A program made the position numbers and the translations under genes. A stretch of 64,000 nt of DNA, from contig NZ_PIPZ01000002.1 of NCBI RefSeq assembly GCF_003987045.1, positions 186,001 to 250,000 of the forward strand, in the 5' to 3' direction. The notes beneath the pieces are model-generated. The model did not search any database, was not told the origin of the DNA, and worked only from the letters and a program-made list of their open reading frames with translations. Origin of the DNA: Pseudidiomarina marina. GTDB lineage: Bacteria; Pseudomonadota; Gammaproteobacteria; Enterobacterales; Alteromonadaceae. Positions 2,409 through 63,589 of the stretch are shown here, one piece after another (position 1 is the first letter of the stretch; each line of letters opens with the position of its first letter).

Positions 2409-2552
2409 GCGTTATTCGTTAATCGTTATTCGTTATTCGTGAGCTTGGCTTGCCCGATAGCTCAATTTACAATTCGCTCACTTTTCGTTGTGGTCATTTT
2501 GGTTTTTCGTTTTTGCTTTTCCGAATAACGAGTAACGAATAACGAATAACGC
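2409..2552. repeat. Family-A heptad inverted-repeat element (copy 1)
   Basis: Two 31-base arms (2409-2439 and 2522-2552) are near-perfect reverse complements, with 2 mismatches. Each is made of tandem 7-mers of the TCGTTAT type. The 82-base interior is T-rich and shares the words CACTTTTCGTTG and TTTTTCGTTTT with the copy at 22.8 kb. The right arm ends 2 bases from the stop codon of the Na/Pi cotransporter gene and the left arm lies just upstream of the rplM promoter. No coding capacity is evident. Confidence 0.85.
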
Positions 2553-2554
2553 TT

Positions 2555-4108
2555 TTAGGTTTTCAGGGCGGTGATGATTTCGGCGCTGCGCTCCCACATA
2601 CTCGCCAACTGCATCAACGCCGCCCCTTCCGTAGGTTCAAGCTCGTTAGCAGCAATTCGATTTAACCACGTATGACGCAATAAGTTACGCGTTGCGCGAA
2701 TAGAGCTGGTAAGTGATGCCCAGTTTGCTGCAGGACGAACTTTCATATCTGCCCCATTTAGAAGCTCAAGTAATTGTTCGCGGAGCTGGTGGTTGAGGCT
2801 TGCGTCAATTTGTTCCGGAGTAGCCGCGCGTAGTTTTTCAACAATATCGCGTAAGTCGCGTAACCGTGCATGACTCGTGTGAAGTTCCGCGAGCAATAAG
2901 GCTTCGTCACCATGTAATTGTTTCTCGCTTAACTTGGTTAGGTACGTTTTTATATGCGCTAATAATTCACCAGTGGCGATATCTTCTTCGGTTTCGGTGA
3001 GCGCAGCCTCGTCCTTTAACAGGGTACGCAACCGCAAAATATACTGGCGTAGTACGCGATTGAGCTCTTGTTGCACAGCGTTGAGACCCATCGCGGGAAC
3101 TTCTAAAACGGTTTTATCTAAGAAACGCGGTTCGCCTGAACGCAGTGGCGGTAGCCGATACCAACTTTCTACTCGGCGGAAAATTCGCTCATCGAGCAAC
3201 CACATCAGGGCCACACCGAGTACATTAAATAATGTATGGAACACCGCGAGACCGGTACTAATATTCGTAACCTGTTCGCCCCCTGATAATAATTCTGCCG
3301 TCCACCACATAGGAACTAACAAAATTAACGCCGCAATTCCGGTGACGGTATTCATTAATACATGTACGGCGGCAAGGCGTTTTGCGTGCGCTGTGGCGCC
3401 AATGCTGGCTAGCAACGCTGTGACGGTGGTGCCAATATTTGCGCCAATAACCACGGCGGCGCCAGCTAACGGCGAAAACACACCGCTGACGGATGCGGTA
3501 AGCACAATCGCCAAAGCGGCGGAAGAAGACTGCACCAGAGCTGTTAATAGCGCCCCTGCTAGTACCGCCAGGAGAATACCGAACGGACCACTAATTGATA
3601 ATTGGCCAACTGGCAAAATCGTGACAAGCTGCTCGAAGGCTTCTCGCAGTGTATCCAATCCGACAAATAGCACGCCGAAACCAGCAACGGCTAGACCAAT
3701 GCTACCTAATGGGTCGGCACGACGCACCAGCTGAAGGAGCATACCTAAGCCAATTAATGGCCAAGCAACAATGCCGATATTCAGCTTCAACCCAATCAGT
3801 GCGACTATCCATGCCGTCATCGTTGTACCGACGTTGCTTCCGAACACCACCCAAGCCGCTTGCTTTAACTTCAACATGCCGGCATTGGTAAAACCGAGTA
3901 AAGCTACGACAACAGCACTGGATGACTGCACTAATGCGGTCACCGTAAAACCTGACAAAGCAGCTCGCAGCCTCGTTTGCGTGGAGCGTTCTAGATAACT
4001 CTGTAAATGACTTCCAGCTGCAGCTTTTAAGCCGTCGGTCAGCAATTGCATGCCGAGCAACAAGAGGCCGAGGCCCCCGAGCGCTAAAGTCCAGTCAGTT
4101 AACATCAT
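2555..4108 (-). CDS. Na/Pi cotransporter family protein with PhoU-like C-terminus
   Basis: Probable sodium-dependent phosphate cotransporter of the NptA/YjbB type in the inner membrane, 517 aa. The N-terminal 310 residues hold about eight hydrophobic helices with two inverted copies of the family signature TALVQSSSA (in TVTALVQSSSAVVVALLGF and LTALVQSSSAALAIVLTA). From about residue 330 the protein is soluble, helical and rich in Leu/Glu/Arg, fitting the PhoU-like domain of this family. The start ATG overlaps the zapE stop (ATGA), so the two are probably co-transcribed. Whether it imports or exports phosphate cannot be told. Confidence 0.88.
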   Translation of the reverse strand: MMLTDWTLALGGLGLLLLGMQLLTDGLKAAAGSHLQSYLERSTQTRLRAALSGFTVTALVQSSSAVVVALLGFTNAGMLKLKQAAWVVFGSNVGTTMTAWIVALIGLKLNIGIVAWPLIGLGMLLQLVRRADPLGSIGLAVAGFGVLFVGLDTLREAFEQLVTILPVGQLSISGPFGILLAVLAGALLTALVQSSSAALAIVLTASVSGVFSPLAGAAVVIGANIGTTVTALLASIGATAHAKRLAAVHVLMNTVTGIAALILLVPMWWTAELLSGGEQVTNISTGLAVFHTLFNVLGVALMWLLDERIFRRVESWYRLPPLRSGEPRFLDKTVLEVPAMGLNAVQQELNRVLRQYILRLRTLLKDEAALTETEEDIATGELLAHIKTYLTKLSEKQLHGDEALLLAELHTSHARLRDLRDIVEKLRAATPEQIDASLNHQLREQLLELLNGADMKVRPAANWASLTSSIRATRNLLRHTWLNRIAANELEPTEGAALMQLASMWERSAEIITALKT

Positions 4109-5232
4109 GGTTTATGGGCGAGTCCTAAGTATTCGTGACTTTGCATTTCTAATAATCGACTAACACAGCGTTTAAACTCAAAATTTAATTTACCTTGCGT
4201 GTAAAGTTCATCCAGTGGCGCTGCTCCTGACATAATTAGCTTCACGCGGCGTTCATAGAATTCGTCCACCAACGCGATAAAGCGCCGAGCCGCATCGTCA
4301 TTGTGCGCGCCCATTTGCGGCACATCGCTAATCAAAACTGCGTGATAACATTGCGCCAATTCAATATAGTCGTTCTGCGAACGTGGGCCACCACAAATAG
4401 CATCAAATGAGAATAAAACGACGTCGTCACACTCCATGCGTACCGGAATATTGCGATTATTCACCACAATGTATCCTCGCTCATCGCGATTGCAATGATC
4501 AGGCGCTAACTCCGTAAAGTATCGCTGGAGGTTTTCATCAGCGGCTGCATCCGCTGGGGCGTGATAAATTTCTGCGCGAGTTAACGTTCGTAGACGGTAA
4601 TCAATACCGCTGTCGACATTGATAACTTCACAATGTTGCTTAATTAATTCGATGGCGGGAATGAAACGCTGTCGCTGCAGGCCATTTCGATAAAGATCAT
4701 CAGGCACAATATTCGATGTAGCGACCAACACAACGTTGCGTTTGAATAGCTCTTGCATCAATGTGCCGAGAATCATTGCATCGGTAATGTCTTGCACGAA
4801 GAACTCGTCAAAACAGACCACCCGAGCTTCGCTAGCCAGTTTATCGGCAATAATCGGCAACGGGTCGCTACGCCCTTTCAATTCTTTCAATTCACTATGT
4901 ACGCGGTGCATAAAGCGATGGAAATGAACACGCAACTTTTGATCAAACGGTAAAGTTTCAAAAAAAGTGTCAACCAAATAGGTCTTTCCGCGTCCTACGC
5001 CACCCCAAAAGTAAATGCCTTTCGGAGTTGGTCTTGCACCGCCTAGCGCTTGCTTTATTCGGGCAAACAATCCCGCCTCACTGTGCGCTTGATGAAATAA
5101 GACCAGTTCGTCATAAAGGCGCTGTAACGCCTCTACAGCACGTCGTTGCGCGGCATCCGGCTGAAAGTTTCCAGTCGCTAAATCCTGCTCATATTTTGAT
5201 AATGGTGTCAGCTTGTTCGTTGTCACTACCAC
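4105..5232 (-). CDS. zapE: Cell division protein ZapE (AFG1-type ATPase)
   Basis: AFG1/ZapE family P-loop ATPase, which in E. coli associates with the Z-ring and modulates FtsZ polymers. It is 375 aa, the family length. The Walker A box GGVGRGKT is at residues 77-84, Walker B is in VVCFDEFFVQDITDAMILG, and sensor-like segments LVATSNIVPDDLYRNGLQR and the C-terminal FEFKRCVSRLLEMQS are typical. It lies beside zapG and rplM-rpsI, the same neighbourhood as in E. coli (yhcM, yhcB), and is transcribed divergently from zapG. Confidence 0.93.
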   Translation of the reverse strand: MVVTTNKLTPLSKYEQDLATGNFQPDAAQRRAVEALQRLYDELVLFHQAHSEAGLFARIKQALGGARPTPKGIYFWGGVGRGKTYLVDTFFETLPFDQKLRVHFHRFMHRVHSELKELKGRSDPLPIIADKLASEARVVCFDEFFVQDITDAMILGTLMQELFKRNVVLVATSNIVPDDLYRNGLQRQRFIPAIELIKQHCEVINVDSGIDYRLRTLTRAEIYHAPADAAADENLQRYFTELAPDHCNRDERGYIVVNNRNIPVRMECDDVVLFSFDAICGGPRSQNDYIELAQCYHAVLISDVPQMGAHNDDAARRFIALVDEFYERRVKLIMSGAAPLDELYTQGKLNFEFKRCVSRLLEMQSHEYLGLAHKP

Positions 5233-5302
5233 TTCGACCCTATTCTGGATTATGCTAGTAGGCAGTAGTTTATCATGCGAAATGCATTTTTAAGGAGTTT
5301 TT

Positions 5303-5719
5303 ATGAGCTGGATTGTTGGAATTTTACTCGTGATAGCAGGCGCAATCGTTGGATTTTTTGTGGCGCGTTACTGGCTTGCCGAGCATACAGATGAAGCCGA
5401 GTTAAACCAGCAAGTCACCCAAACTAAACAACAACTTGCAGATTATCGCCAAGAAGTTGCTGAGCACCTTGCTACTGCCCAAGCACTCGTGGGTCAGCTT
5501 GAAGAAACTCAAGATAAGCTTAAAGCGTATTTGCACCACAGTGCCGACCTATTACAACGTGAGCAAGAACAACCTAGCTTGCCATTTTTTGCCGAAGATA
5601 CCATCCGCGAACTGCGTATGGCGAACAAAGTAAATGGCGAGAAACGTCGCTCGGATGATAAGGCGCCAAGTGATATGCCGCGTGACTACAGCGACACCAA
5701 GTCGGGCCTCTTCAAGTAA
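5303..5719 (+). CDS. zapG: Z-ring associated protein ZapG (YhcB, DUF1043)
   Basis: YhcB/ZapG family envelope protein linked in E. coli to cell division and envelope synthesis. It is 138 aa with one N-terminal membrane helix (residues 1-24, MSWIVGILLVIAGAIVGFFV) followed by a cytoplasmic coiled coil rich in Gln/Glu (about 33-90) and a polar tail. AAGGAG lies 8 bases before the ATG at 5303. It is divergent from zapE and upstream of degQ-degS, matching E. coli gene order. Confidence 0.92.
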   Translation: MSWIVGILLVIAGAIVGFFVARYWLAEHTDEAELNQQVTQTKQQLADYRQEVAEHLATAQALVGQLEETQDKLKAYLHHSADLLQREQEQPSLPFFAEDTIRELRMANKVNGEKRRSDDKAPSDMPRDYSDTKSGLFK

Positions 5720-5723
5720 ATCT

Positions 5724-5854
5724 GCAAGAGCGATATTAGCTATTGGATATTGGATATTAGAAAAGACAAATACCCGTTACATCCTAGTATCTAATAGCTG
5801 ACATTGATTATCGCTCTTGCTTTTCTAATATCCAATATCCAATAGCTAATATCG
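5724..5854. repeat. Family-B heptad inverted-repeat element (copy 1), three-armed
   Basis: A perfect 35-base inverted repeat: 5731-5765 and 5820-5854, built from GATATTA/GATATTG/GCTATTG 7-mers followed by GAAAAG. Inside is a third, degenerate arm (about 5785-5820) that contains TAATAGCT and ends TATCGCTCTTGC, the complement of GCAAGAGCGATA at 5724-5735. Two alternative hairpins can therefore form. It fills the zapG-degQ gap. Confidence 0.85.
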
Positions 5855-6001
5855 TTTTTGTTTTTCGTTTTACATCTTGAAACACATCCGCTGTGAACTT
5901 ATTTAATAATGGTCAGTCTTTAACTGCATCTACCTGAAATTATTCCAAACCCTGCTCGCACCCTCATGCAGCAGAAAATGTGTGTATAGGAGTTAACTCT
6001 G

Positions 6002-7348
6002 ATGAAAGTGAAGTTCATTGCGGTTCTGGCATTGGCAAGTGCATTAATTATTGCGCCTGTTTCAGCCGGTATTCCTTTCTTTGGCGATAAAGATGAGACG
6101 CCAACACTTGCCCCTATGCTTGAGGAAGTCACCCCTGCGGTGGTGAATATCTCAGTTAAAGGGAAACGTGAGGTTCGCCAACGTATTCCAGATATGTTTC
6201 GCTTTTTCTTTGGTCCAGGAGGCCCTCGCGAGCAAGTGCAGGAGCGACCGTTCCAGGGGCTAGGTTCTGGCGTTATTATTGATGCTGATGAAGGATATGT
6301 TGTCACTAACAACCATGTGATTGATGGCGCATCGGAAATTTTAGTTACTTTAAAAGATGGCCGTCAGTTCGATGCGAAAGTTATCGGAACGGATGACCGT
6401 TCTGATGTTGCGTTACTTAAGATCAAAGATGGTGAAAATCTAACCGAGATCAAAATTGGTAACTCCGCTGATTTGCGCGTTGGTGATTTCGTCGTTGCCA
6501 TTGGTAACCCATTTGGTCTAGGCCAAACGGTCACGTCAGGTATTGTTAGCGCGTTGGGTCGTAGTGGCTTAGGTATTGAAGAAATTGAGAACTTCATTCA
6601 AACCGATGCTGCCATTAACAGCGGTAACTCAGGCGGTGCACTGGTGACCTTGAAAGGTGAGTTGATTGGCATCAACACCGCAATTTTGGGGCCAAATGGC
6701 GGCAATATTGGTATCGGTTTCGCTATTCCTGCTGACATGATGAAAAACCTTGTTGCGCAGCTTGTTGAGTTTGGTGAGGTGCGTCGCGGTGTACTCGGTG
6801 TTCGCGGAAATGATTTGACTCATGAAATCGCTAAAGCTCTTGATTTAAAAGCAAACCAAGGTGCGTTTATTGCCGAAGTGATTCCTGAGGGAGCAGCCGA
6901 TAAAGCTGGCTTAAAATCAGGTGACGTGATTGTTGCGGTGAACGGTGAGAAAATTCGCACCTTTGCTGACCTAGGCGCTCGAGTGAGCACCATTGGCGTG
7001 GGCAAAGAACTTGAAATTACCGTGTTACGTGATGGAAAAGAGCGAAAATTTGATGTGGTGCTTACCGCTGACGAGCAAGAAGTAACTGCTGCGGCATTAC
7101 ATCCTGCGCTAGATGGCATCATCTTAGCACCGGACGAACGCGGTGGTCTTAAGGTTACCAATATCGAAGAAGGTTCATTAGCTGAACGATACGGTATTCG
7201 CAAAGACGACGTAATTATTGGCGTTAACCGTAGCCCGATAAATAGTATGAGCGAGTTACGCGAAGCGCTAAGCAATGCAGGTAGCGTGGTCGCGTTAAAC
7301 ATTCGTCGAGGCAATTCCCAGTTGTATCTCGTGTTGCGCGGCGGTTAA
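6002..7348 (+). CDS. degQ: Periplasmic serine endoprotease DegQ (DegP/HtrA family)
   Basis: Do-type periplasmic protease/chaperone, 448 aa. Residues 1-22 are a Sec signal peptide ending VSA. The trypsin-like domain has the triad His105 (VTNNHVID), Asp135 (RSDVALLKI) and Ser210 (NSGNSGGAL). Two PDZ domains follow (about 245-345 and 370-448), as in DegP and DegQ but unlike DegS. GGAG lies 9 bases before the ATG. Its own hairpin terminator separates it from degS. DegQ fits better than DegP because of the short LA-loop region and the degQ-degS pairing. Confidence 0.94.
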   Translation: MKVKFIAVLALASALIIAPVSAGIPFFGDKDETPTLAPMLEEVTPAVVNISVKGKREVRQRIPDMFRFFFGPGGPREQVQERPFQGLGSGVIIDADEGYVVTNNHVIDGASEILVTLKDGRQFDAKVIGTDDRSDVALLKIKDGENLTEIKIGNSADLRVGDFVVAIGNPFGLGQTVTSGIVSALGRSGLGIEEIENFIQTDAAINSGNSGGALVTLKGELIGINTAILGPNGGNIGIGFAIPADMMKNLVAQLVEFGEVRRGVLGVRGNDLTHEIAKALDLKANQGAFIAEVIPEGAADKAGLKSGDVIVAVNGEKIRTFADLGARVSTIGVGKELEITVLRDGKERKFDVVLTADEQEVTAAALHPALDGIILAPDERGGLKVTNIEEGSLAERYGIRKDDVIIGVNRSPINSMSELREALSNAGSVVALNIRRGNSQLYLVLRGG

Positions 7349-7391
7349 TTGGTTGGCGGTGAGGCACCAATTAACTCGGTAAAACCAAAAC

Positions 7392-7419
7392 GAAGGCAGT
7401 ACAATTACTGCCTTCTTTT
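7392..7419 (+). terminator. Rho-independent terminator of degQ
   Basis: GAAGGCAGT (7392-7400), six-base loop, ACTGCCTTC (7407-7415), then a TTTT run. It lies 44 bases beyond the degQ stop and before the degS start, so degS probably has its own promoter. Confidence 0.85.
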
Positions 7420-7472
7420 GTAAACAGTGTTATGCTTTGCTCTATTCTTAAATCAGTAGGTTACAAGTCACT

Positions 7473-8525
7473 ATGCAGCTACGGCAATTTGCTTGGTACA
7501 TTGTTCGCTCGGTCATTCTTGGCCTAGCTGTCGCCGCCATTGTGATTTATGCCTTGCCACAATTGCGTGAGCAATTTAGTAATAATTCACAGCAATCACA
7601 GCAACCTTTGAGTTTTTCTACAGCCGTGCAACGTGCCGCTCCAGCGGTCGTGAATATTTATAGCATCGGCTCGACACGCGATTCTTATTACTCACGCCGA
7701 CCAAATAGCCTTGTTCGATTGGGTTCAGGCGTGATCATGGATAATCGCGGACATGTGTTAACGGCCTACCATGTGGTGGCTGACGTGAACGAAATTCAAG
7801 TTGCGCTACAAGATGGTCGTAACTACAGCGGTCAGGTGATTGGGTTTGACCGTATTACCGACCTAGCCGTAGTGCGTATTGAAGCAGATAATCTTCCAAC
7901 TATTCCGCAAAATGAATCGCTGACCACGCAAGTTGGCGATGTGGTGCTTGCGATTGGTAACCCGCACAACTTAGGCCAAACCATCACGCAAGGTATTGTC
8001 AGTGCAACTGGCGGGCGTATGGGGGTTATTCACTCGCATGCCGACCTGATTCAGATGGATGCGGTCATCAATGAAGGCGCCTCCGGTGGCGCGTTGATTA
8101 ATAGCCAAGGTTATTTGGTAGGCATCAATAATGCTCAGTTTCGTGATGCTCGCGGTCAAGGTATCGACGGTATTTATTTTGCCGTTCCCTACCCGCTCGC
8201 GCGTTCGGTCATGGATACACTCATTCGAGAAGGTGAAGTGGTGCGTGGTTACTTGGGAGTGCAAGTCGGCGAAACGCCACAGTCAAACCCATACACTCAA
8301 CCCGGTATTTTTATTACTGGGGTTGATCCCAATAGCCCCGCAGAACGAGCCGGTTTACGTGCTGAAGATTATATTACTGAAATTAACGGTCAGCCGATGC
8401 TTACCGCGGCTGAGGGTCTTGCCTTGGTTGCGAAAACCAAACCAGGTACAACATTACAAGTTCAGTTTTTACGTGACAATAAAGAAGAAACAACAGAAGT
8501 TACAATTACAAAACTGCAGCAGTAA
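7473..8525 (+). CDS. degS: Membrane-anchored serine protease DegS
   Basis: Site-1 protease of the sigma-E envelope stress pathway; it cleaves the anti-sigma factor RseA when its PDZ domain binds misfolded porin C-termini. It is 350 aa. One N-terminal membrane anchor (about residues 9-28) without a cleavage site, a protease domain with His100, Asp130 and Ser204, and a single PDZ domain (about 245-345) give the DegS architecture. The usual GNSGG around the serine reads GASGG here (Ser204 retained). It follows degQ and converges on murA. Confidence 0.92.
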   Translation: MQLRQFAWYIVRSVILGLAVAAIVIYALPQLREQFSNNSQQSQQPLSFSTAVQRAAPAVVNIYSIGSTRDSYYSRRPNSLVRLGSGVIMDNRGHVLTAYHVVADVNEIQVALQDGRNYSGQVIGFDRITDLAVVRIEADNLPTIPQNESLTTQVGDVVLAIGNPHNLGQTITQGIVSATGGRMGVIHSHADLIQMDAVINEGASGGALINSQGYLVGINNAQFRDARGQGIDGIYFAVPYPLARSVMDTLIREGEVVRGYLGVQVGETPQSNPYTQPGIFITGVDPNSPAERAGLRAEDYITEINGQPMLTAAEGLALVAKTKPGTTLQVQFLRDNKEETTEVTITKLQQ

Positions 8526-8530
8526 CGAAT

Positions 8531-9815
<1,285 letters not shown>

Positions 9816-10082: not shown

Positions 10083-10091
10083 TTAATCGCT

Positions 10092-11071: not shown

Positions 11072-11080
11072 ACGTACTCC

Positions 11081-18371: not shown

Positions 18372-18374
18372 ATC

Positions 18375-22758: not shown

Positions 22759-22901
22759 AAAGCGTTATTCGTTGTTCGTTATTCGTGAGTTTATCTCGCT
22801 CGAGAGTACGAATACGAATTTGCACACTTTTCGTTGGGCGTGTTTTGTTTTTTCGTTTTGTCTTTTTCGAATAACGAATAACGAACAACGAACAACGCTT
22901 T
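22759..22901. repeat. Family-A heptad inverted-repeat element (copy 2)
   Basis: Left arm 22762-22785 (three heptads of the TCGTTAT/TCGTTGT type) faces right arm 22868-22898 (four heptads), with AAAG/CTTT extending the inverted repeat outward. The interior shares GTGAG, CACTTTTCGTTG and TTTTTTCGTTTT with the copy at 2.4 kb. It fills the divergent pmbA/yjgA control region. Confidence 0.85.
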
Positions 22902-39600: not shown

Positions 39601-40330
39601 CGCCGCCAGTTTAACTCCTGTTGATGATATTGGTGATGAGTTTTATAACCGCCTCGATTTCTTGCCTCAAACCACTTGGTTAGCGGGCGAACTTACTTTT
39701 GCAAGCTCGGCCGTATCATTTAACCGCCGAGTAGATAATGAGCCCGACGGCCCCTACCCTGATCTCCAGCTTGGTTTGCAGTTGCTCGATCCCAGCACAG
39801 ATGCCCGCAATTTCGCGGCCGCCGATCAGTCGATGACCGTCCAGAACGATCCGGCACTGACGTTGCCATCAACCGCCGTGCCAATTGGCGGCTTACTCGA
39901 GCTTCGTTACGGTCGAATGAGACTTGAGAATATCTTCGGCCCCGAAAATGAAGATTTACCGATTGTGATGTACAACGAATACTTTGATGGCAACCGCTTT
40001 GTCCTCAATGATATTGATTCATGTACCACGGTAACCGCCGCAAATCTTAATATCATCGATAATCCAGACGCGATCGATACCGTTGCCGATCAGCTGACGG
40101 GTCCAATTACGTTCAGTAACGGTGAATTGATCTACGGCGACTTGTTCTGGCTTGCGCCCAATGCACCAAATAACTTCGGTGACTTTATCTTCGAATATCA
40201 AGCTGACTCATGGTTGCGTTATGAGTGGGGTCACGATGCAGCTGAAATAAACGAGAATCCACGAGCCACGGCGGGCTTCGGTCAGTACCGCGGTAATGAC
40301 CGCGTCATCTTCTGGATGGAAAGACAGTAG
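36617..40330 (+). CDS. mshQ: MSHA biogenesis protein MshQ with beta-helix-like N-terminal half
   Basis: Very large secreted protein of the MSHA locus, 1237 aa. GGAGG six bases upstream selects the ATG at 36617 over the GTG just before it. Residues 1-20 are a Sec signal peptide (ending ALAFA). Residues about 90-235 are a run of short repeats (NGDI, NSGLINGKV, NNSGAVLSGRV, NNGTVTSNI) like a beta-solenoid or bactofilin-like fold. A second Gly/Asn-rich beta region follows (about 290-510). From about 523 (EVHHYRLLHPQVLVSCYSAA) to the end is the DUF6701-type MshQ domain with many Cys. The function within the pilus is unknown; surface or tip adhesion is inference. Confidence 0.82.
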   Translation: MGFIKSVILAIALLPALAFANWTLPDDAVNNVGDFAGCSFDGGQTVTCNSDITLTTVDATLSLTQNLNLVINGAFTTADGITINPNNSYVLNIQLGSSNFLMSGDNAVINANISAANITVSGLETIVNGDLNALANVSVASGPTINGDIIAGGSVSNSGLINGKVTTAGNFVNNSGAVLSGRVDASGSVQNNGTVTSNIDAVGAVTNSSGATAGSINASSPVVNDGTVLGYINAPSVSGTGTAPYTCSINSYVGPCPGAQDPEYDYCSEVTLLTSYGVVGSGGFTFGNGSEINGNPIDGTGNTPTPIGQVDTVDLEYPPLDPLIFPTFSGGADLNISKKNDPSDIPAGTYGTINVAGGNNGNFLGGTYYIDRLEVGATGSGTGITLGPGDYFIREIVFHSGIYVNTTSAGPARLFIETGIGQTNANQLEINSGGSASNLQIYLYEGATISLGNGNMGGNKDTLNFNGTIYGPFPDNDITLGNNNTLQGSILTAGTIDVGTDTVFNYSPEVQAEVTASLGCAPVDSEVHHYRLLHPQVLVSCYSAAIEVIACADETCSATYDDPVTITVSSSDADSVWQGGSLDSTTDADANLLFSNGTGGSGLRNINGGAAALTLSNASPTAVEATQCYDSSGTVATSCEVTFNTAGLIITDIDGASPLPATFAGNDLPAALRAVETNTTTGACEARLSGTHTVNLGMQCLNPGTCQPGQSLTIDGQAIGLNAAGSNTNTQALALTFDATGRVENDLVVNYSDVGQIRLFASLPLTEAPSASNPAISDPDIELVGTSINDFVVKPHTLVTRALDDAGDLWTSTTATGPGFTAAAAPFSMVVQSLNAAGNPTPNFGLESTSAGVQVQFHSMAYPTPADIDSNGSQLTLNNPFVIDPTYPGAKRTSGAIWKEVGTVNLTARLSGDNYLGAGDAFSRPPSPIGRFYPSRFTVSAANVVNACSGFSYMGQDAIEVTYTVQALNQLDEVTKNYANSGGVLYSDTATVQMRAASLTPVDDIGDEFYNRLDFLPQTTWLAGELTFASSAVSFNRRVDNEPDGPYPDLQLGLQLLDPSTDARNFAAADQSMTVQNDPALTLPSTAVPIGGLLELRYGRMRLENIFGPENEDLPIVMYNEYFDGNRFVLNDIDSCTTVTAANLNIIDNPDAIDTVADQLTGPITFSNGELIYGDLFWLAPNAPNNFGDFIFEYQADSWLRYEWGHDAAEINENPRATAGFGQYRGNDRVIFWMERQ

Positions 40331-40382
40331 CCCGGCGTTTCACGCCGAGTGGCGGTAGCTCGGCGTTCTACGCCGAGTGGCG
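40327..40382. repeat. Tandem REP-like palindromic units
   Basis: Two direct 28-base units (40327-40354 and 40355-40382) match at 25 of 28 positions. Each begins GTAGCYCGGCGT and contains a GC-rich hairpin (CGGCGT / ACGCCG). The mshQ stop codon TAG (40328-40330) lies within the first unit. A further small hairpin, GGCGC/GCGCC, follows. This resembles repetitive extragenic palindromes and may act as a terminator of mshQ. Confidence 0.7.
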
Positions 40383-40413: not shown

Positions 40414-40462
40414 GTGTTCGTTATTCGTTATTCGTTATTCGTTGCTCGTTATTCGTTGTGCG
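40414..40462. repeat. Family-A heptad array, single-armed (copy 3)
   Basis: Seven tandem heptads of the TTATTCG type (variants TTGCTCG, TTGTGCG) between the convergent mshQ and mshA. No facing complementary arm is present, so it looks like half of the inverted-repeat element seen at 2.4 and 22.8 kb. Confidence 0.8.
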
Positions 40463-54621: not shown

Positions 54622-54709
54622 TGACTCTCCACTTTGAACTTGATCAATTTCTATTCAAATAGTAGCAGACTTTTCCCAAAGCAATTGATGCAATTAACTA
54701 TTTTACGGC

Positions 54710-55288: not shown

Positions 55289-55292
55289 AGAA

Positions 55293-55417
55293 TCGTTAAT
55301 CGTTATTGGTTATTGGTTATTGGTTATTCGACGTGTTTTTCTAATATCTAATATCCAATAGCTAATATCCACTCTTTTTCTTTCCCACGAATAACGAACA
55401 ACCAATAACGATTAACG
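55293..55417. repeat. Chimeric heptad element: family-A arms enclosing a family-B arm (copy 4)
   Basis: Left arm 55293-55330 (heptads TCGTTAA, TCGTTAT, then three TGGTTAT) and right arm 55388-55417 (complementary, one to two heptads fewer) are family A. Between them 55341-55369 is the right arm of family B (CTAATATCTAATATCCAATA...), as at 5.8 and 63.6 kb, without its left partner. It fills the divergent tdk/adenosine deaminase control region. Confidence 0.85.
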
Positions 55418-55461
55418 CCTTTGTTTTGATATACTTTGTGAAATTCAAATAGGAGAAGCCC

Positions 55462-56691
55462 ATGACCGCACCTTATTCTCACGCCTTCTTAAAAGCTATG
55501 CCAAAAGCCGACCTGCATTTGCACTTGGACGGTAGTTTACGTCCGGATGGCTTAATTGAAATGGCAAAGCGCAGTGGTATTGAGCTACCGTCATACACGG
55601 TTGATGGCTTGTACGACCTTGTGTTTAAAGAGTCGTATCAGAATTTAGGTGAATATTTGAACGGCTTCCAATACACCTGTGCGGTTTTACGCGACATGGA
55701 AAACCTTGAGCAAGCCGCGTATGAATTAGCCCAAGATAATATTGCTGAGGGTGTTATCTACATTGAAGTTCGCTTTGCGCCGCAATTAATGATGGACCCA
55801 GCTAGGGGCATCGATTTTGATACCGTGATGCACACAACGAACAAAGGCTTAAAGCGCGCCAAAATTGAATACAATGCACAGCCTGAGGTTCAGAATGGAA
55901 CTAAACCGCCGTTTGATTACGGCATCATCAACTGCGCTATGCGTATGTTCGGCAAAAAAGGATTCTCGCCTTACTACACCCAGCTATTCCAAATGTTGCG
56001 CGACCATGAGCCAAAGCAAGTGATTAAAACCGCGGCCATGGAAATGATCCGCGCCAGCGTGCGTCTGCGCGATGAAGAAGGCTTACCAATTGTTGGCTTA
56101 GATATCGCCGGTCAGGAAATGGGCTACCCGGCGCACGATTTCAAAGAAGTCTACGAGTATGCACATCAAAATTTCTTGCTGAAAACTGTCCATGCTGGCG
56201 AAGCCTACGGCGCTGAGAGTATTTTTGAAGCACTCACACAGTGTTATGCCGACCGTTTAGGGCATGGTTATTCACTGTTCTCGCCAGAGATGATTCAAGA
56301 CCCGACAATTACCGATAAAGAGGATTATGCGCGTCGGTTAGCGTCGTTTATTGCCGACCGTCGCATCGCTATTGAGGTGTGTATTACCAGTAACCTACAA
56401 ACAAACCCAGATATTGGCGATGTCAGCAACCATAACTTTAAACACATGTATGCGAACCGGTTAGCAACCGTCATTTGTACCGATAACCGACTAGTCTCGC
56501 GTACTAGCGTGACGCAAGAATATGAACTCGCGTTAAGTGCTGTCGATGTGCCGTTAAAACGTTTAAAAGATATAGTTGCTTATGGCTTTAAGAAAAACTT
56601 TTTTGCGGGTGACTACATTGCGAAACGTGCCTACGCGAAGCAGGCACTAGAATACTTTGATAAGGTTGCTGCAGAGCACAGGGTTAGCTAA
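55462..56691 (+). CDS. add: Adenosine deaminase family protein
   Basis: Zinc-dependent deaminase of adenosine/AMP type, 409 aa, longer than E. coli Add (333 aa). Metal ligands His19 and His21 in KADLHLHLDGS, His in KTVHAGEAYGAES, catalytic Glu in the same motif, and the Asp in VICTDNRLVSRTSVTQEY (where canonical Add has TDDP). A His/Glu active pair is in ADRLGHGYSL. Adenosine is the likely substrate; a related purine nucleoside cannot be excluded. Confidence 0.85.
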   Translation: MTAPYSHAFLKAMPKADLHLHLDGSLRPDGLIEMAKRSGIELPSYTVDGLYDLVFKESYQNLGEYLNGFQYTCAVLRDMENLEQAAYELAQDNIAEGVIYIEVRFAPQLMMDPARGIDFDTVMHTTNKGLKRAKIEYNAQPEVQNGTKPPFDYGIINCAMRMFGKKGFSPYYTQLFQMLRDHEPKQVIKTAAMEMIRASVRLRDEEGLPIVGLDIAGQEMGYPAHDFKEVYEYAHQNFLLKTVHAGEAYGAESIFEALTQCYADRLGHGYSLFSPEMIQDPTITDKEDYARRLASFIADRRIAIEVCITSNLQTNPDIGDVSNHNFKHMYANRLATVICTDNRLVSRTSVTQEYELALSAVDVPLKRLKDIVAYGFKKNFFAGDYIAKRAYAKQALEYFDKVAAEHRVS

Positions 56692-56704
56692 AGACTTTGA
56701 GTTG

Positions 56705-56730
56705 AGAGGCGCTGAATTGCGCCTCTTTTT
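56705..56730 (+). terminator. Rho-independent terminator after add
   Basis: AGAGGCGC (56705-56712), six-base loop, GCGCCTCT (56719-56726), then TTTTT. It lies 13 bases past the stop of add and 18 bases before the end of the convergent ssb. Confidence 0.87.
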
Positions 56731-56747
56731 ATTTCTATCTATATGAT

Positions 56748-57326
56748 TTAGAACGGAATATCGTCGTCAAAGTCTTGATCAGGAACGAACGGTTCTTGCT
56801 GCTGCGGTTGCTGCGCAGGCTGTTGGTTAAAGCTTTGTGCTGGCGCTTGACGCTGACCACCTTGCTGACCGCCACCGAAGCCACCCTGGCCTTGTCCACC
56901 TTGTGAGCCGCTTTGACCACCGCTTTGCTGACCACCGAAGCCGCCCGATTGCTGACCGCCACCGTAACCACCTTGTCCGCCACCTGGGCGACCATCAAGC
57001 ATTTGCAGGTCGTTGATAACAATTTCAGTGGTGTAGCGCTCAACGCCATCTTGTCCTTGCCATTTACGTGTTTGCAGACGGCCTTCAACATAAACTTTTG
57101 AGCCTTTTTTCAGGTACTCGCCGGCAATTTCCGCTAAGCGACGATACGCTACACAACGATGCCACTCGGTTTGCTCGCGCGGCTCGCCAGTTTGCTTGTC
57201 TTTCCACGTCTCACTGGTTGCAACTGAAAGGTTTGCGATGGCTGTATTATTTTGCGTGTAGCGCACTTCTGGATCGGCGCCTAAATTACCAATTAAAATT
57301 ACCTTATTAATGCCGCGACTGGCCAT
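56748..57326 (-). CDS. ssb: Single-stranded DNA-binding protein
   Basis: SSB, 192 aa. OB-fold at residues about 1-112 ([20 protein letters not shown] ... [15 protein letters not shown]). A long Gly/Gln-rich linker (about 113-178) is followed by the acidic tip DFDDDIPF that recruits partner proteins. Near uvrA as in E. coli, but with a MFS gene between them, 36 bases upstream. Confidence 0.96.
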
Positions 57327-57362
57327 GCCATCTGCTCCTTCACTATCTCTTATTTTCGATAC

Positions 57363-58748
57363 TTACGTTCGGTACGGCGCTATATGCGCCTCTATTTCAG
57401 AATCATTGTAATCAGTTTTATGAACTTTTAAATACACCGTTTGTTCGTCGGCCACAATGCGAACTTCTTCTACCCCATTCAACTGACTCAATTGTTCGGC
57501 TAAGCCATCGGCTTGAGACGCATTCAATTTACCCAAGGTGAAACTCACACTTTGTTGTTGTGGCGGTGGCTGCATGCCGAAGCTGATTGTAAACCAGCAT
57601 ACTAGCAGTACCGTGCAGAAAATCCCAACACCTAACAAACCAAAATATTGATAAATGGAGCCACCAGCGGCACCACCTACAAACGCACCTAAAAACTGGC
57701 ATGTGGCGTAGATACCGCTTGCACTTCCCTTTCGCCCTGCTGGCGCAAAGCGCGTGAGTGAGCTTGGCAGCGTCGCCTCAAGGAAGTTAAAACCAGTAAA
57801 AAATAGCACAACGGCGATAGCTAAATAAGTCCAATGCGCTGGGATAAATACGATAACTGCCACGGCCAAGATGACTAAGCCAATGGCAACGCGGAAATAA
57901 CGTGGTTGCTGACGTTGGCGCTCGGCTTTTATCAACATCGGAATCATAAAGGCAAAAGATGCAATCAATGTTGGTAAATACAACCACGCATGTTCATCTG
58001 CGGCCAATCCACCGCGCATAAGCTGTAACGGCACCACCACAAAAAACGCCGTTAAGACGCAATGCAGTACCAGTACGCCAAAATTCAAACGCGCTAATTG
58101 GGGGTCTTTAAATAGCTGGCCGAGTTCATTTTTTAATGGAATCAAATCACCGCGCGCTGACTTCTGCGCAACTTTTGGAACGGCCGCAAGAAATACCACA
58201 ATACCAAACACAGCACTTACGGCAGTGAAATAAAATAACCCAGACAAGCCAATTTGCGCGCCAAGCAATGGGCCTAAAACTAGCGCCAAGGCGAACGACA
58301 AACCAATAAACATGCCGATTGCGGCCATTACTTTCGGACGTTGTGAATCGCGCGTAATATCCGCCGCCAAAGCCAATATTGCAGCAGCAATTGCGCCCAT
58401 TCCCTGCAATGCGCGACCGATAACTACGCCGACAAGTGTATCTGCCCATGCAGCCACTAAGCTCCCAGCGGCAAAGACTAACAGACCAGCAATAATCACA
58501 GGCCGACGACCAATTCGATCAGAGAGCATACCCAACGGAATCTGTAATAGCGCCTGTGTTAAACCATAGGCACCAATGGCTAAGCCGATTAACAACGGTG
58601 TGTAATCTGGATACTGCTGACCATATATGGCAATAACGGGCATGATCAAAAATAGCCCGAGCATACGTAATCCAAATACAGTAGCTAAAGCACCAGAGGC
58701 GCGCCGCTCAGTCGGAGTGAGTCGATTGTCTTGGTTTTGCTGTCGCAT
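57363..58748 (-). CDS. MFS transporter with C-terminal YAM domain (YajR-like)
   Basis: Twelve-helix major facilitator, 461 aa from the ATG at 58748; an ATG two codons earlier is about as likely. The A motif between TM2 and TM3 is GMLSDRIGRRPV. After TM12 (near residue 385) a soluble segment with LGKLNASQADGLAEQLSQLN to the end matches the ferredoxin-like YAM domain of E. coli YajR. Proton-coupled export is likely, substrate unknown. It lies between ssb and uvrA. Confidence 0.88.
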   Translation of the reverse strand: MRQQNQDNRLTPTERRASGALATVFGLRMLGLFLIMPVIAIYGQQYPDYTPLLIGLAIGAYGLTQALLQIPLGMLSDRIGRRPVIIAGLLVFAAGSLVAAWADTLVGVVIGRALQGMGAIAAAILALAADITRDSQRPKVMAAIGMFIGLSFALALVLGPLLGAQIGLSGLFYFTAVSAVFGIVVFLAAVPKVAQKSARGDLIPLKNELGQLFKDPQLARLNFGVLVLHCVLTAFFVVVPLQLMRGGLAADEHAWLYLPTLIASFAFMIPMLIKAERQRQQPRYFRVAIGLVILAVAVIVFIPAHWTYLAIAVVLFFTGFNFLEATLPSSLTRFAPAGRKGSASGIYATCQFLGAFVGGAAGGSIYQYFGLLGVGIFCTVLLVCWFTISFGMQPPPQQQSVSFTLGKLNASQADGLAEQLSQLNGVEEVRIVADEQTVYLKVHKTDYNDSEIEAHIAPYRT

Positions 58749-58777
58749 GAACATCTCATTGCTGCAGGAAAAAATCG

Positions 58778-58793
58778 CTGGCCATTGTACCAG
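58778..58793 (+). promoter_or_regulatory. Possible LexA (SOS) box before uvrA
   Basis: CTGGCCATTGTACCAG has the CTG-N10-CAG form of a gammaproteobacterial LexA box, but the usual CTGT/ACAG reads CTGG/CCAG. It overlaps a TTGTAC (58785-58790) which is 19 bases from GATAAT (58810-58815), a possible uvrA promoter. uvrA is a classic SOS gene, which is the main support. Confidence 0.4.
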
Positions 58794-58865
58794 AAGGTAT
58801 CGGTTGTGCGATAATACTCGTTTCATTCAATTGCTTGTCATTGGCAACGGAGAGTTGTAATTCTC

Positions 58866-61691
58866 ATGGATAAAATAGAAATCCGCGGTGCCCGCACCCA
58901 CAACCTGAAAAACATTAACGTGACCATTCCGCGCGACAAACTGGTGGTCATCACAGGGCTGTCTGGCTCGGGAAAATCTTCGTTAGCTTTTGATACGCTA
59001 TATGCCGAGGGGCAGCGTCGTTACGTTGAATCCCTATCGGCTTATGCGCGGCAGTTTTTATCGCTGATGGAAAAGCCAGATGTGGATAGCATCGAAGGTC
59101 TATCCCCAGCTATCTCGATTGAACAAAAATCAACGTCACACAACCCGCGCTCAACGGTCGGTACCATTACCGAAATATATGACTATTTGCGCTTAATGTT
59201 TGCTCGGGTCGGCGAACCACGTTGCCCAACGCACAATGTTACGTTAGCGGCACAAACCATTTCACAAATGGTGGACCAAGTACTTGCCTTACCAGAAGGC
59301 GAAAAACTGATGATTGTCGCACCAATTATTCAGGAGCGTAAAGGTGAGCACACTAAGGTTCTCGAAAATCTCGCGGCGCAAGGCTTCATACGTGCCCGCA
59401 TTGACGGTGAATTATGTGATTTAAGCGATCCTCCAAAACTGGAGTTACATAAAAAACACACCATCGAAGTGGTGGTTGATCGCATTAAAGTTCGCGAAGG
59501 CCTTGAGTTACGACTCGCTGAATCGTTTGAAACCGCGCTTGAGTTGAGTGGCGGGACGGCCCTTGTGGTGCCTATGGAAGACGATTCGAAAATTGAAGAT
59601 ATTGTGTTTTCCGCAAACTTTGCCTGCCCTCATTGTGGTTACAGCATGCAAGAACTTGAGCCGCGCTTATTCTCGTTTAATAACCCGGCTGGTGCGTGTG
59701 GCTCATGTGATGGTTTGGGTATTGAACAGTTCTTTGACCCTGCCAAAGTCGTCACCAATCCAGAGCTTAGTCTTACTGGCGGCGCGATTCGTGGCTGGGA
59801 CAAACGTAATTTCTACTACTACCAAATGTTGCAGTCGCTGTCGCGTCACTACAAGTTTGACCTGAATAAGCCGTTTGCGAGCCTCGACGAAAAACACCAA
59901 CAAGTGGTGTTATTTGGCAGTGGCAAAGAAGAAATAGAATTTACCTATATGAACGATCGCGGCGACCGTGTGGCGCGTACGCATGCGTTTGAGGGGATTA
60001 TTCCTAACATGCAACGCCGCTATCGGGAAACCGACTCGATGGCGGTTCGCGAAGATTTATCGAAGTATCTTGCATCACAGCCATGTAAGAGTTGTGGCGG
60101 CACCCGTTTACGTCAGGAAGCGCGTCATGTGTTTGTGAATGACACAACGTTACCTCAGGTTGTTGAGCGCTCGATTGGCGATGCTCTGAAATTCTTCCAA
60201 GAACTCGAGCTTGAAGGCCAGCGCGCAAAAATTGCCGAAAAAATTCTGAAAGAAATTAATGACCGTCTCGGCTTTCTCGTCAACGTTGGCTTAAACTATT
60301 TGAGCTTATCGCGTAGCGCAGAGACCCTCTCAGGTGGTGAAGCGCAACGTATTCGATTAGCATCGCAAATAGGTGCCGGCCTGGTTGGCGTGATGTACGT
60401 GCTTGATGAACCGTCGATTGGCTTACATCAGCGCGATAACGAACGTCTATTGAGCACGCTCACGCGCTTACGTGACCTCGGTAATACCGTAATTGTGGTT
60501 GAGCACGATGAAGATGCAATACGAGCCGCCGATCATGTCATTGATATCGGTCCAGGAGCGGGCGTTCACGGTGGCCAAGTGATTGCGCAAGGCCATTACG
60601 AAGAAATCATGGCCAACGAAGACTCATTAACCGGTGATTATTTGTCGGGCCGAAAAGAGATTGCGGTACCGAAAAAGCGCCATCAACCTGGCAAACATTG
60701 GGTTAAATTGAATGGCGCTTCTGGCAATAACTTGAAAAACGTCAACGCCGAGATACCTGTAGGCTTGATGACTTGTGTAACCGGCGTTTCCGGCTCCGGC
60801 AAGTCAACGTTGATTAACGACACCCTATTCCGTATTGCCCACCGAGAGCTCAACAAAGCGACAGCCAATGAGCCAGCGCCTTATGAGAGCATCGACGGCA
60901 TGCAATTTTTAGATAAAGTCGTTGATATTGACCAAAGTCCGATCGGCCGTACACCGCGTTCGAACCCAGCAACCTATACAGGCATCTTTACGCCAATTCG
61001 TGAGCTTTATGCTGGTACAGAAGAAGCACGATCTCGTGGTTATAAGGTTGGGCGTTTCAGCTTTAACGTGCGAGGTGGTCGTTGCGAGGCTTGCCAAGGC
61101 GATGGTGTCATTAAGGTAGAGATGCACTTCTTACCGGACGTGTACGTGCCCTGTGACGTTTGTAAAGGCAAGCGCTACAACCGCGAGACCTTAGAGATTA
61201 AATACAAAGGCAAGAGCATTCACGAGGTCTTAGATATGACCGTTGAGGACGCGCGTGAATTCTTTGCACCAATTCCCGCAATTGCGCGCAAGCTGCAAAC
61301 GCTTATCGATGTTGGCTTGTCGTATATTCGTCTAGGTCAAAGTGCAACCACATTGTCAGGCGGTGAAGCCCAGCGCGTCAAATTAGCGCGCGAATTATCC
61401 AAACGTGATACCGGCAAAACCTTGTACATTTTGGATGAGCCGACCACAGGTCTGCACTTCCATGATATTCAGCAGTTACTGACGGTCTTGCATCGACTGC
61501 GGGACCATGGCAACACCATCGTGATTATTGAGCATAACCTCGATGTCATTAAAACCGCAGATTGGATCATCGACTTGGGCCCTGAAGGCGGCTCTGGCGG
61601 AGGTGAAATTTTGACGGCAGGTGCGCCAGAAGATATCGTGACATGTAAAGCGTCACACACCGCTCGCTTCCTTAAACCAATGTTAGGGTAA
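58866..61691 (+). CDS. uvrA: Excinuclease ABC subunit A
   Basis: Damage-recognition ATPase of nucleotide excision repair, 941 aa. Two ABC modules: Walker [10 protein letters not shown] (about 31-39) and GVSGSGKST (about 640-648); signatures [15 protein letters not shown] and [15 protein letters not shown]; zinc modules CPHCGYSM...CGSCDG and CEACQGDG...CDVCKG. GGAGAG precedes the ATG at 58866. It is followed 2 bases later by the glutaminase gene. Confidence 0.98.
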
Positions 61692-61693
61692 TC

Positions 61694-62650
61694 ATGACGA
61701 CAGATGTCATCAGTGGTGGTCAATCCATCCATGCACCAGACAACTTAAAGCCTTTGTTGGAGAGCATTCTTCAACAGGCTTTAACGGTGAATGATGGAAA
61801 AGTTGCTGATTACATTCCTGCGCTGGCTGAAGTGAAATCTGATTATTGCGCGCTTACCGTCGCAACATTAGATGGCAAAGTCACCTCTGTTGGTGATTCC
61901 GACAAGGTTTTTTCGATTCAATCCATTTCAAAAATCTTTGGCCTAATGCTTGCCATGGAACGGCTTGGCGATCCGCTATGGGAACGGGTTCAAATGGAGC
62001 CGTCGGGCCAACCCTTTAATTCTATTGTTCAGCTGGAGTGGGAAAAAGGAATACCCCGTAACCCGATGATCAATGCCGGTGCGCTATTAGTCAGTGACGT
62101 TTTAGTTAGTCATTATTCTGCCAGTAAATCGGCTTTGCTAAGTATGGTGCGCGGTTTGTGCGGTAGTGACGATGTTTGCGTTGATTCGCGCGTGCACGAC
62201 TCTGAGCGTGCGCATGGGGCTCGCAACGCCGCGTTAGCTTACTTGATGAAAAGCTTTGGTAATATTGAAGCGGATGTTGAAGAGGTATTAGACCACTACT
62301 TTTGGCAATGTGCATTGACCATGTCAACGGAACAATTGGCCCGTAGCTTCGCGTTTCTCGCCAACCGTGGTAAATGCCCACGTAGCGGTGCACAAATCAC
62401 CTCACATCGCGACGCACAGCGCATTAATGCATTATTAAGTACCAGCGGCATGTATGATCAATCGGGGCAGTTTGCATTCACGGTTGGGTTACCAGCCAAA
62501 AGTGGTGTTGGTGGCGGCATCGTTGCCATCGTTCCTGACTATGGTGTTATCACGGCTTGGAGCCCGCCACTTAATAGTTATGGCAACTCCGCGAGAGGCA
62601 TGTTTATGATTCGCGAGCTAGCTAACCACTTAGGCTTGAGTGTTTATTAA
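61694..62650 (+). CDS. glsB: Glutaminase
   Basis: Serine-dependent beta-lactamase-like glutaminase: glutamine to glutamate and ammonia, cytosolic. It is 318 aa. The SxxK active site is Ser77-Lys80 in FSIQSISKIFGL; NPMINAGALLVSDV, SEQLARSFAFLANRG-like and VGLPAKSGVGGGIVAIVP are family motifs. It lies two bases after the uvrA stop, so may be read from the same transcript. Confidence 0.94.
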   Translation: MTTDVISGGQSIHAPDNLKPLLESILQQALTVNDGKVADYIPALAEVKSDYCALTVATLDGKVTSVGDSDKVFSIQSISKIFGLMLAMERLGDPLWERVQMEPSGQPFNSIVQLEWEKGIPRNPMINAGALLVSDVLVSHYSASKSALLSMVRGLCGSDDVCVDSRVHDSERAHGARNAALAYLMKSFGNIEADVEEVLDHYFWQCALTMSTEQLARSFAFLANRGKCPRSGAQITSHRDAQRINALLSTSGMYDQSGQFAFTVGLPAKSGVGGGIVAIVPDYGVITAWSPPLNSYGNSARGMFMIRELANHLGLSVY

Positions 62651-62659
62651 TCGACGCCC

Positions 62660-63469
62660 CTAATGGCTGGCCGGTAGTTTAAACTTCTTAAAGATAGCAC
62701 TAAGCCTGCCGTTTTCTTTTAGACGGTCGATTAAATGCTCAACTTGAGACGCATCAACGTTTTTATTTTTATTGACCACAGTGGCCATGTTAAAAACGCC
62801 ATATGGCTTTTTGGAAATTAATAACTGCTCCTTCACTGAACGAGGAACCATCGCCGCCAGATATTCGTCCGAGAGCATGATCAAATCTAATCGTTTATTC
62901 AAAAGCATCTGCAAATTAACTTCGTGAGAATGCGCTAAATAGATGCCGTAATCCTCTTCAAGAATTCGATGGTCTTTTTCATTCGCAGCAAATGGATAGT
63001 GATAACCTACAATGCCACCAAATCTGAGACCTTTCATTTCGAAAAAACGCTGATCTCGGTTCAAGTGTTTTAACGCCACGAAACGCTCTCGACCGACAAG
63101 CAACGGTTCGGTTACATGCAAATCGATGTCTTCATCACGCCAGCCCCAGTCAATATCCTCGAATAACATCAAATCACAACAACCATCAGCACTTAAAGCA
63201 ACATAACGCGCATTCGGAGCGATAGGTTCAAGAGAAAAATGGTAGTCTTGTTGAATATGATTCAAAGCCTTGATGACTTCACCAACCAAGTGCGATTGCA
63301 TTTGTTCAGAGTAATATGGTGGGTACTCGTACGCCGCAACTCGAACTTGAATTGGTTCTGCGGTCGCATGAAAAAACAAACCAGATAGTATTGTTATTAT
63401 AGTTATTATAGTTATTAAGTACTTCAAGACTTCGCTTACTCCGTTAACTCTTGTGTATCCTTCACACAT
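62660..63469 (-). CDS. Periplasmic solute-binding protein (family 3-like)
   Basis: Putative periplasmic amino-acid-type binding protein, 269 aa. A hydrophobic stretch (about 15-35, LKYLITIITIITILSGLFFH) ends in ATAE, a signal peptide. The start at 63469 (ATG with AAGG close by) leaves a long n-region; a TTG at 63427 with an upstream GGAG would give a more typical signal. The body has VRVAAYEYPPYYSEQM and LRFGGIVGYHYPF, as in HisJ/ArtJ-like proteins, but no transporter partner lies nearby. It is likely one of the orphan binding proteins common in this group. Ligand unknown. Confidence 0.75.
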   Translation of the reverse strand: MCEGYTRVNGVSEVLKYLITIITIITILSGLFFHATAEPIQVRVAAYEYPPYYSEQMQSHLVGEVIKALNHIQQDYHFSLEPIAPNARYVALSADGCCDLMLFEDIDWGWRDEDIDLHVTEPLLVGRERFVALKHLNRDQRFFEMKGLRFGGIVGYHYPFAANEKDHRILEEDYGIYLAHSHEVNLQMLLNKRLDLIMLSDEYLAAMVPRSVKEQLLISKKPYGVFNMATVVNKNKNVDASQVEHLIDRLKENGRLSAIFKKFKLPASH

Positions 63470-63500
63470 CAGCCTTCAAAGTCAAGGGAAACTGCAAGAA

Positions 63501-63589
63501 CGATATTAGCTATTAGATATTGGATATTAGTTGAGCGGTCTTGGTCTTTCGTGTTTTCGCTAATATCTAATATCTAATAGCTAATATCG
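63501..63589. repeat. Family-B heptad inverted-repeat element (copy 2)
   Basis: Left arm 63501-63530 and right arm 63560-63589, 30 bases each with one mismatch, around a 29-base T-rich loop. Arms are GATATTA/GCTATTA/GATATTG heptads. The left flank GCAAGAA matches GCAAGAG before the copy at 5.7 kb. It lies between tuf and the binding protein gene. Confidence 0.87.

Follow-up and report, generated by a model that had tools for sequence, protein, structure and literature searches.

What kind of element is built from tandem 7-bp words around a core, and what spreads or keeps it, is the question raised by six intergenic loci in a 64,000-nt window of the Pseudidiomarina marina genome (contig NZ_PIPZ01000002.1, positions 186,001 to 250,000; G000:C3:186001-250000 in our numbering, with G000 the P. 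marina genome itself). A preliminary description of this window had assigned them to two heptad families, A (TTATTCG/TTATTGG) and B (GATATTA/GATATTG), and had offered a non-autonomous element, hairpins grown by replication slippage and protein-binding sites as explanations. On balance, we think it probable that they belong, as non-autonomous copies, to a dispersed family of inverted repeats, the gene-bearing form of which consists of a heptad arm, an S23p gene (PF05635) and a second heptad arm. We observed that this gene is paired with such arms, in other bacteria as well, that gene and repeats tend to occur together, and that the elements have dispersed as units, and we are largely confident that the link between gene and repeats is real. 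The S23p gene, the fixed slots that the elements occupy and the switching of families within those slots all go beyond the preliminary description.

Array and polarity scans bore out heptads at all six places and two complementary arms in five of them, the element at 40.4 kb having a single arm (Table 1). A genome-wide search with both heptad words found them enriched: an A 16-mer gave 547 matches at up to 2 mismatches versus 34 for a reversed control, and a B 23-mer gave 134 matches at up to 3 mismatches versus 0, so chance is excluded as the source of the elements. The window plus 20 further stretches of P. marina DNA (446 kb, with densities biased upward because 18 of the 20 were picked around matches) contained 109 arrays of period 7, and 0, 6, 0, 6 and 1 arrays of periods 5, 6, 8, 9 and 10, respectively. 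Two-armed elements numbered 52 in this DNA versus 2 in reversed sequence, or 70 versus 27 when single arrays of two heptads were added. All but one of the 52 had the same polarity, which neither reversed-sequence case shared: the left arm follows approximately GNTRYTN when read inward, with a complementary right arm. Across 59 genomes including P. marina, the A word was clearly over control only within the genus, where it ranged from 1 to 416 matches.

The usual arm is four heptads plus one base, or 29 nt. In elements with at least two arms, this held for 49 of the 55 B arms and 33 of the 70 A arms. Unequal heptad numbers on the two sides, given earlier for the two-armed elements of the window, are present in the 3+4 and 5+4 cases; arms are mostly of four. 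Heptad positions 1, 3 and 6 were at least 96% constant in both families, as computed on arms selected by the same words, and position 2, and partly position 7, separates A from B. The outer ends are also alike by eye (approximately GCAAARRCG), and together with the common architecture, polarity and heptad skeleton this supports the single origin suggested earlier for A and B. The core is not always T-rich, as the earlier account had it: simple B cores are mostly 14-29 bp, and either strand can be the T-rich one.

No window copy contains an open reading frame (ORF) for S23p. The gene-bearing copy lies outside the window, at G000:C1:1115837-1116302 (stretch L069), where two B arms 400 bp apart surround a 118-aa frame and the neighbours read as protein genes, not 23S rRNA. 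This frame matched PF05635 (E 2e-34) and TIGR02436, "four helix bundle protein", as well as, weakly and under the profile cut-off, the Avd profile of diversity-generating retroelements (DGRs; E 0.0013). The closest solved structure is XCC0516 of Xanthomonas campestris (2GSC, five chains, E 1e-22), which the available text of PMC4990558 describes as a toroidal homopentamer. PF05635 proteins are given no known function in that text, and are said to resemble Avd in the available part of PMC10053308.

PF05635 is single-copy in 17 of the 26 genus genomes, flanked on one side by a conserved stretch beside rpsT in 16 of the 17 and on the other by murJ in 13 (both named by reading translations); another gene takes the place of murJ in G009, G010 and G012, and G025 shows neither neighbour. 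Period-7 arrays were present in 26 of the 34 flanks of these genes, with words that differ between genomes. The arms are of B words in G000, G011 and G023, of A words or A plus GC-rich words in G003, G012, G013, G015, G018, G020, G024 and G025, and of GATGTTT-like words in G004, GCTATTT/GCTGTTC in G017, TTATTGG in G010 and CTAGCAA in G005; those in G002 and G009 are mixed or degenerate. In G012 (L286, G012:C9:498669-498827), the S23p frame, of 82 aa between GC-rich heptad arms, covers profile positions 51-103 only, as if decaying.

Pairing of the gene with repeat arms also occurs outside the genus. Taking the best PF05635 match per genome, we scored 29 gammaproteobacterial loci not picked for heptads and 30 loci from a heptad-bearing set. 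Strong inverted arms were found in 14 of the 29 loci versus 5/232 cross pairs and 1/25 displaced pairs, and in 15 of the 30 versus 0/240 and 0/27. Period 7 was the best period in 41 of 58 flanks in the first set, where no other period reached the cut; in the second, periods 7, 8 and 9 were best in 18, 11 and 2 of 60 flanks. Thus, about half of the sampled PF05635 loci outside the genus carry strong inverted arms of short tandem repeats, mostly of 7 bp and of varied words. A metagenome-assembled genome of Candidatus Kaiserbacteria provides a further example of a heptad-armed PF05635 gene (L135, the same gene as L301). By eye, arms of period 8 were noted at loci L296, L297, L299, L303 and L310, and at L198 the gene sits in A-like heptad arms between frames read as nuoG and nuoH.

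Starting from the repeats gave a similar association. A scan for three A heptads, with one genome per species, found at least 114 stretches; among the matches listed (80), many were in Bacteroidota, and other 7-bp words adjoined in several of 30 inspected. PF05635 was present in 45 of 50 heptad-bearing genomes searched, in up to 19 copies, and in 0 of 14 control genomes; the 50 were drawn from 58 distinct non-Idiomarinaceae genomes among the matches listed, and the figure of 45 has no unselected PF05635 base rate for Bacteroidota beside it. Of the 114 heptad stretches, four had S23p nearby (two or more of these in the genus), which fits, if weakly, a family of mostly gene-less copies. In Gammaproteobacteria, where 77 of 369 genomes have PF05635, a GGGAAT heptad word modelled on a Xanthomonas repeat occurred in nine genomes, seven of them with the gene, compared to 70/360 of the others (p 3e-4). 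The reversed word, intended as a control, was found in eight genomes (at least 5 times in five of them), seven of which have PF05635, and pooling both words post hoc gave 14/17 versus 63/352 (p 4e-8). In Bacteroidota loci including L105, L109, L133 and L134, the words TTTTAGG, CTTGCTT, TTGATAC and ATCCCTA lie near A heptads in one region. Twelve viral contigs (L215-L226) also contain three A heptads; the B 29-mer was in none of the viral contigs, and a genus-built S23p profile found no match in this viral A set.

Within the genus, whole genomes with the gene had 8-416 A-word matches (17 genomes) versus 1-17 in the nine without it (p 4e-5, like all genus p-values here ignoring kinship); the A word is the one that P. 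marina uses, so genomes using other words score low. When every stretch was used, period-7 arrays of whatever word had a median density of 6.9 per 100 kb where the gene is present (16 genomes) versus 0 where it is absent (nine genomes), at p 5e-4, a contrast inflated because several stretches were selected at element sites (L227-L246 were picked opposite P. marina element clusters). Blindly placed stretches gave 8 arrays in 400 kb from eight genomes with the gene and 1 in 400 kb from seven without it (p 0.03). A uvrA tree shows 6 changes between presence and absence of the gene, at least 4 of them forced by well-supported branches, so gain or loss of the gene was not a single event. In addition, the dispersed words of a genome fit the arms of its own S23p gene better than permuted pairs did (19 of 10000).

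The cores between the arms indicate how the elements spread. Among the matches listed, the 82-bp core of A element 1 was 80% identical over 50 bp to the core at 22764, with further copies in L072, L073 and L080; A cores recurred at unrelated sites in both orientations, a B core of ~29 bp did likewise, and some elements were nested or in tandem. Homologous cores at unrelated sites and in both orientations mean that whole units were dispersed instead of growing in place. This is hard to square with the earlier option of slippage-grown hairpins, in a version where polymerase slippage lengthens 7-bp words in place and template switching carries them over to the second arm. Slippage would suit arrays as long as 10 heptads and the 7-nt polymerase contact proposed by Mrazek (cited in the available texts of PMC4679880 and PMC4692102), but it does not explain the shared cores, the fixed polarity or the association with one gene, and we regard it as highly improbable as the origin of the hairpins.

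The non-autonomous option of the preliminary description is instead favoured, by the asymmetric cores at unrelated sites and by the gene-bearing, B-armed version in the same genome. The elements have the inverted terminal repeats and dispersed copies in both orientations expected of miniature inverted-repeat transposable elements (MITEs), and an ordinary MITE, mobilised by a transposase that escaped notice and carrying the S23p gene as a passenger between its arms, would account for the inverted arms, asymmetric cores, two orientations and nesting. Such a passenger, however, would have to be one protein family within arms of differing words across phyla. Two wide arm pairs were inspected in P. 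marina (others were not searched): S23p lies in one of them, and no gene was clear in the other. We consider an ordinary MITE improbable.

Orthologous gaps in related genomes showed a second property: the element sites are fixed slots with exchangeable content. We compared 24 two-armed P. marina elements with the orthologous gaps in up to five relatives. The 81 clean comparisons gave the same heptad family in 33, a different heptad family in 36, a GTAG-headed REPIN-like palindrome (REP, repetitive extragenic palindrome) in 12 and an empty site in 0, with a slot scored as filled at two word matches, so that some are degenerate (A element 4 in G024, for example). In the reverse direction, we took 37 two-armed elements of four relatives to C3:40-130 kb of P. 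marina; the 35 with a clean position there fell on heptad elements (32), REPINs (3) and empty sites (0). Fourteen unclean forward comparisons and 2 of the 37 reverse ones were left out, and single-armed elements were excluded from both. Between common flanks, the slot at 2411 holds an A element in P. marina, a B element in G011 and G020, and an A element with GC-rich words in G012, G018 and G024. At the site orthologous to B element 2, G011 and G020 have a core similar to that of P. marina.

Slot switching could also reflect recombination between species, in which conserved flanks allow alleles to be exchanged by homology and no element converts another; this is compatible with the other readings. 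Flank alignments often reach within ~15 bp of the arms, and several slots differ between the close relatives G012 and G018, both as allele exchange would have it; it leaves unexplained how different families first arrived at one point. We judge exchange quite possible, if somewhat short of an even call.

A different explanation for persistent slots is that selection retains a hairpin in each slot and tolerates any family, with S23p a nucleic-acid-binding protein adopted by the host and the elements its functional sites, either hairpins that stabilise or process RNA or insulators. The preliminary description had allowed for binding sites, of a nucleoid protein, and S23p is the best candidate for such a binder. 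The absence of empty slots in both directions agrees with this, as does the ability of REPIN-like palindromes to occupy the same slots. Predicted RNA folding of the five two-armed window elements was also stronger than that of shuffles (z -6.5 to -12.6, the lowest for B element 1), while the single A array at 40420-40455 folded no better than shuffles (z +1.0). The elements lie close to genes: mechanically called ORFs are a median of 12 bp away where the element faces the stop codon and 21 bp away where it faces the start. Of 33 two-armed elements with adequate context, 2 were mostly within such an ORF of at least 100 aa. Against functional sites, these 33 were in tandem (23), divergent (8) and convergent (2) gaps alike, copy number varies widely within the genus, and genomes without the gene live with few A words and few arrays in sampled DNA. 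Moreover, an element can be lacking in more distant genomes: the gap of A element 4, both anchor genes of which were found in 3 of 20 further genomes, shows by eye no two-armed element in any of these three (G007, G009 and G016). We consider a role as host binding sites unlikely.

For the dispersed inverted-repeat family that we favour, the best reading of its organisation is one like REPIN-RAYT with an unrelated protein. In REPIN-RAYT systems, a single-copy gene is flanked by palindromic arms that it shares with many gene-less intergenic copies, and the pair persists vertically for long periods. The present elements likewise have one gene copy flanked by a dispersed arm type, with S23p replacing RAYT (REP-associated tyrosine transposase). 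They differ in that the protein is PF05635 and not a Y1 transposase, and in that the arms are tandem heptads and not GTAG imperfect palindromes, which exist separately in the genome. RAYT was excluded as the partner in P. marina itself, where PF01797 had 0 matches; at least one match was found in 19 of the 26 genus genomes, including G011, G012, G018 and G020.

S23p may well act to copy or maintain the elements, a proposal that comes close to an even call. If a homopentamer like its solved relative, it would read tandem heptads, one per subunit; the 29-nt arm presents five G at 7-nt spacing. A ring of five subunits with one contact each would set the period and leave the word free, matching the varied words seen across phyla. 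The protein might then help one element to be copied into a slot already occupied by another, which would preserve the slots and alter what they hold, with heptad numbers afterwards drifting by slippage. Such replacement at fixed slots would resemble homing, which Avd serves in DGRs. In RNA, the paired arms would make long stems, possible RNase III substrates like those of the intervening sequences (IVSs) of 23S rRNA, and cutting would make elements between genes nearly harmless. We tentatively suggest, while inclining more to doubt than to belief, that heptad-armed S23p elements are a categorically new class of bacterial mobile DNA in which a pentameric, Avd-like four-helix bundle reads tandem 7-mers by geometry and not by word, and drives replacement of elements at fixed slots (homing), which would explain 7-bp repeats across phyla and make the 23S rRNA IVS one special case.

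Several results weigh against S23p-driven dispersal. We know of no transposase-like activity of PF05635, and no mobilisation event was observed. Target-site duplication, which the preliminary description had proposed to read from empty and filled sites, was unreadable because the clean comparisons contained no empty site, and slots also switch to REPIN-like palindromes, for which S23p need not account. Neither the leader nor the tail of S23p was significantly similar to the B core, which lends no support to origin by internal deletion. In the genus, the inflated all-stretch contrast is joined by 0 arrays in the blind stretches of G004, G010 and G025, and G010 misfits its neighbour G022 by array density. 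The arms of a genome's own S23p gene were the best match to its dispersed words in only 5 of 15 genomes, with bad fits in G003, G005 and G020. Inverted arms reached threshold at 12 of 17 genus loci, yet cross pairs did so in 38/136 because arm words are shared, and in G025 the gene by eye lies between two elements of outward polarity and not inside one. Beyond the genus, 5 of the 50 heptad-bearing genomes lack the gene, as do 3 of the 17 Gammaproteobacteria with the GGGAAT word or its reverse; 6 of these 17 have one match only, and in G184 the S23p arms themselves supply most of the heptad matches. The inverted threshold was also reached by direct repeats between flanks at 4/29 and 5/30 loci, and at a strict threshold 7-bp arrays stood on both flanks in only 7 of the 30 non-genus loci.

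The earlier statement that no named family matches stands for the element as a whole, and an Rfam scan of the window gave nothing at gathering score; parts of it have been described. In the available text of PMC4692102, GGGAATC heptads of Xanthomonas and Nostoc are intergenic, mostly of four units and read as G-quadruplex repeats; two species carry 70 and 75 convergent inverted pairs, the majority between the same genes in both. They resemble the P. marina elements in being inverted and mostly of four units, and X. campestris has the S23p protein XCC0516; that text names no gene partner. For the Coxiella IVS, the available text of PMC4990558 reports heptameric repeats upstream of an ORF, cutting of rRNA IVS stems by RNase III, a selfish character and a former proposal that the ORF product serves mobility. 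Like the 23S rRNA IVSs of Coxiella and Leptospira, the gene-bearing copy has an S23p ORF inside an inverted stem; unlike them, copies here lie between protein genes and many are gene-less. TAACTGA arrays of Beggiatoaceae, Cyanobacteria and Bacteroidetes are mostly intergenic and patchy across phyla, but mostly direct and in one orientation upstream of starts, with one inverted case (PMC4679880, available text). Long 7-bp simple sequence repeats share the tandem 7-bp units, but the homologous cores and common polarity go beyond what a simple repeat would have.

Literature linking PF05635 to dispersed heptad repeats was not found among top-ranked search results, with subscription journals mostly outside the search. 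Xanthomonas inverted heptads, TAACTGA arrays and Coxiella IVS heptamers are each known already, and no paper joining them was seen among those results. PF05635 is common, and an excess of 7-bp repeats has been attributed to polymerase slippage (PMC4679880 and PMC4692102, available texts); joining S23p to heptad repeats renders both puzzles testable and, if the link is true, might account for the 7-bp repeats of many bacteria. It is also uncommon for slots to stay fixed while what they hold is exchanged, and such slots would shed light on how bacteria retain intergenic hairpins.

Table 1. Heptad arms, cores and adjoining repeats in the window (window positions).
Feature	Position	Strand	Remark
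A element 1, left arm, 4 heptads	2411..2439	+	
A element 1, 82-bp asymmetric core	2440..2521	+	homologous to cores elsewhere
A element 1, right arm, 4 heptads	2522..2550	-	
B element 1, left arm, 4 heptads	5732..5760	+	complementary to right arm throughout
B element 1, right arm, 4 heptads	5825..5853	-	
A element 2, left arm, 3 heptads	22764..22785	+	divergent gap
A element 2, right arm, 4 heptads	22868..22896	-	
Two tandem GTAG-headed REP-like units	40327..40382	+	adjoin single A arm
Single A array, 5 heptads	40420..40455	+	then GC-rich "C" words to ~40500; no hairpin
A element 4, left arm, 5 heptads	55295..55330	+	divergent gap
B right arm nested in A element 4	55341..55369	-	
A element 4, right arm, 4 heptads	55388..55416	-	
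B element 2, left arm, 4 heptads	63502..63530	+	
B element 2, right arm, 4 heptads	63560..63588	-	

Heptad elements were also found within ~350 bp of contig ends in G000 (C1:165-194, C4:166-292 and C7:51405-51476 of a 51745-bp contig), and their position near three draft-contig ends means that copy number may be undercounted. On C1 and C3, exact A arrays seemed to favour one strand, which was an artefact; the reverse-strand window arm at ~2536-2551 was absent among the matches listed. Integron attC sites were dropped as candidates, as the words do not fit. GTAG-headed REP/REPIN-like palindromes (GTAGCCCGGCGT...) occur in the window at 40327-40382 and in the P. marina stretches L070, L071, L073 and L074, where they have possibly outlived their RAYT. 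B element 1 (5732-5853) contains a further B stretch of two heptads, and its left arm starts 12 bp 3' of the stop codon of the ORF at 5303-5719.

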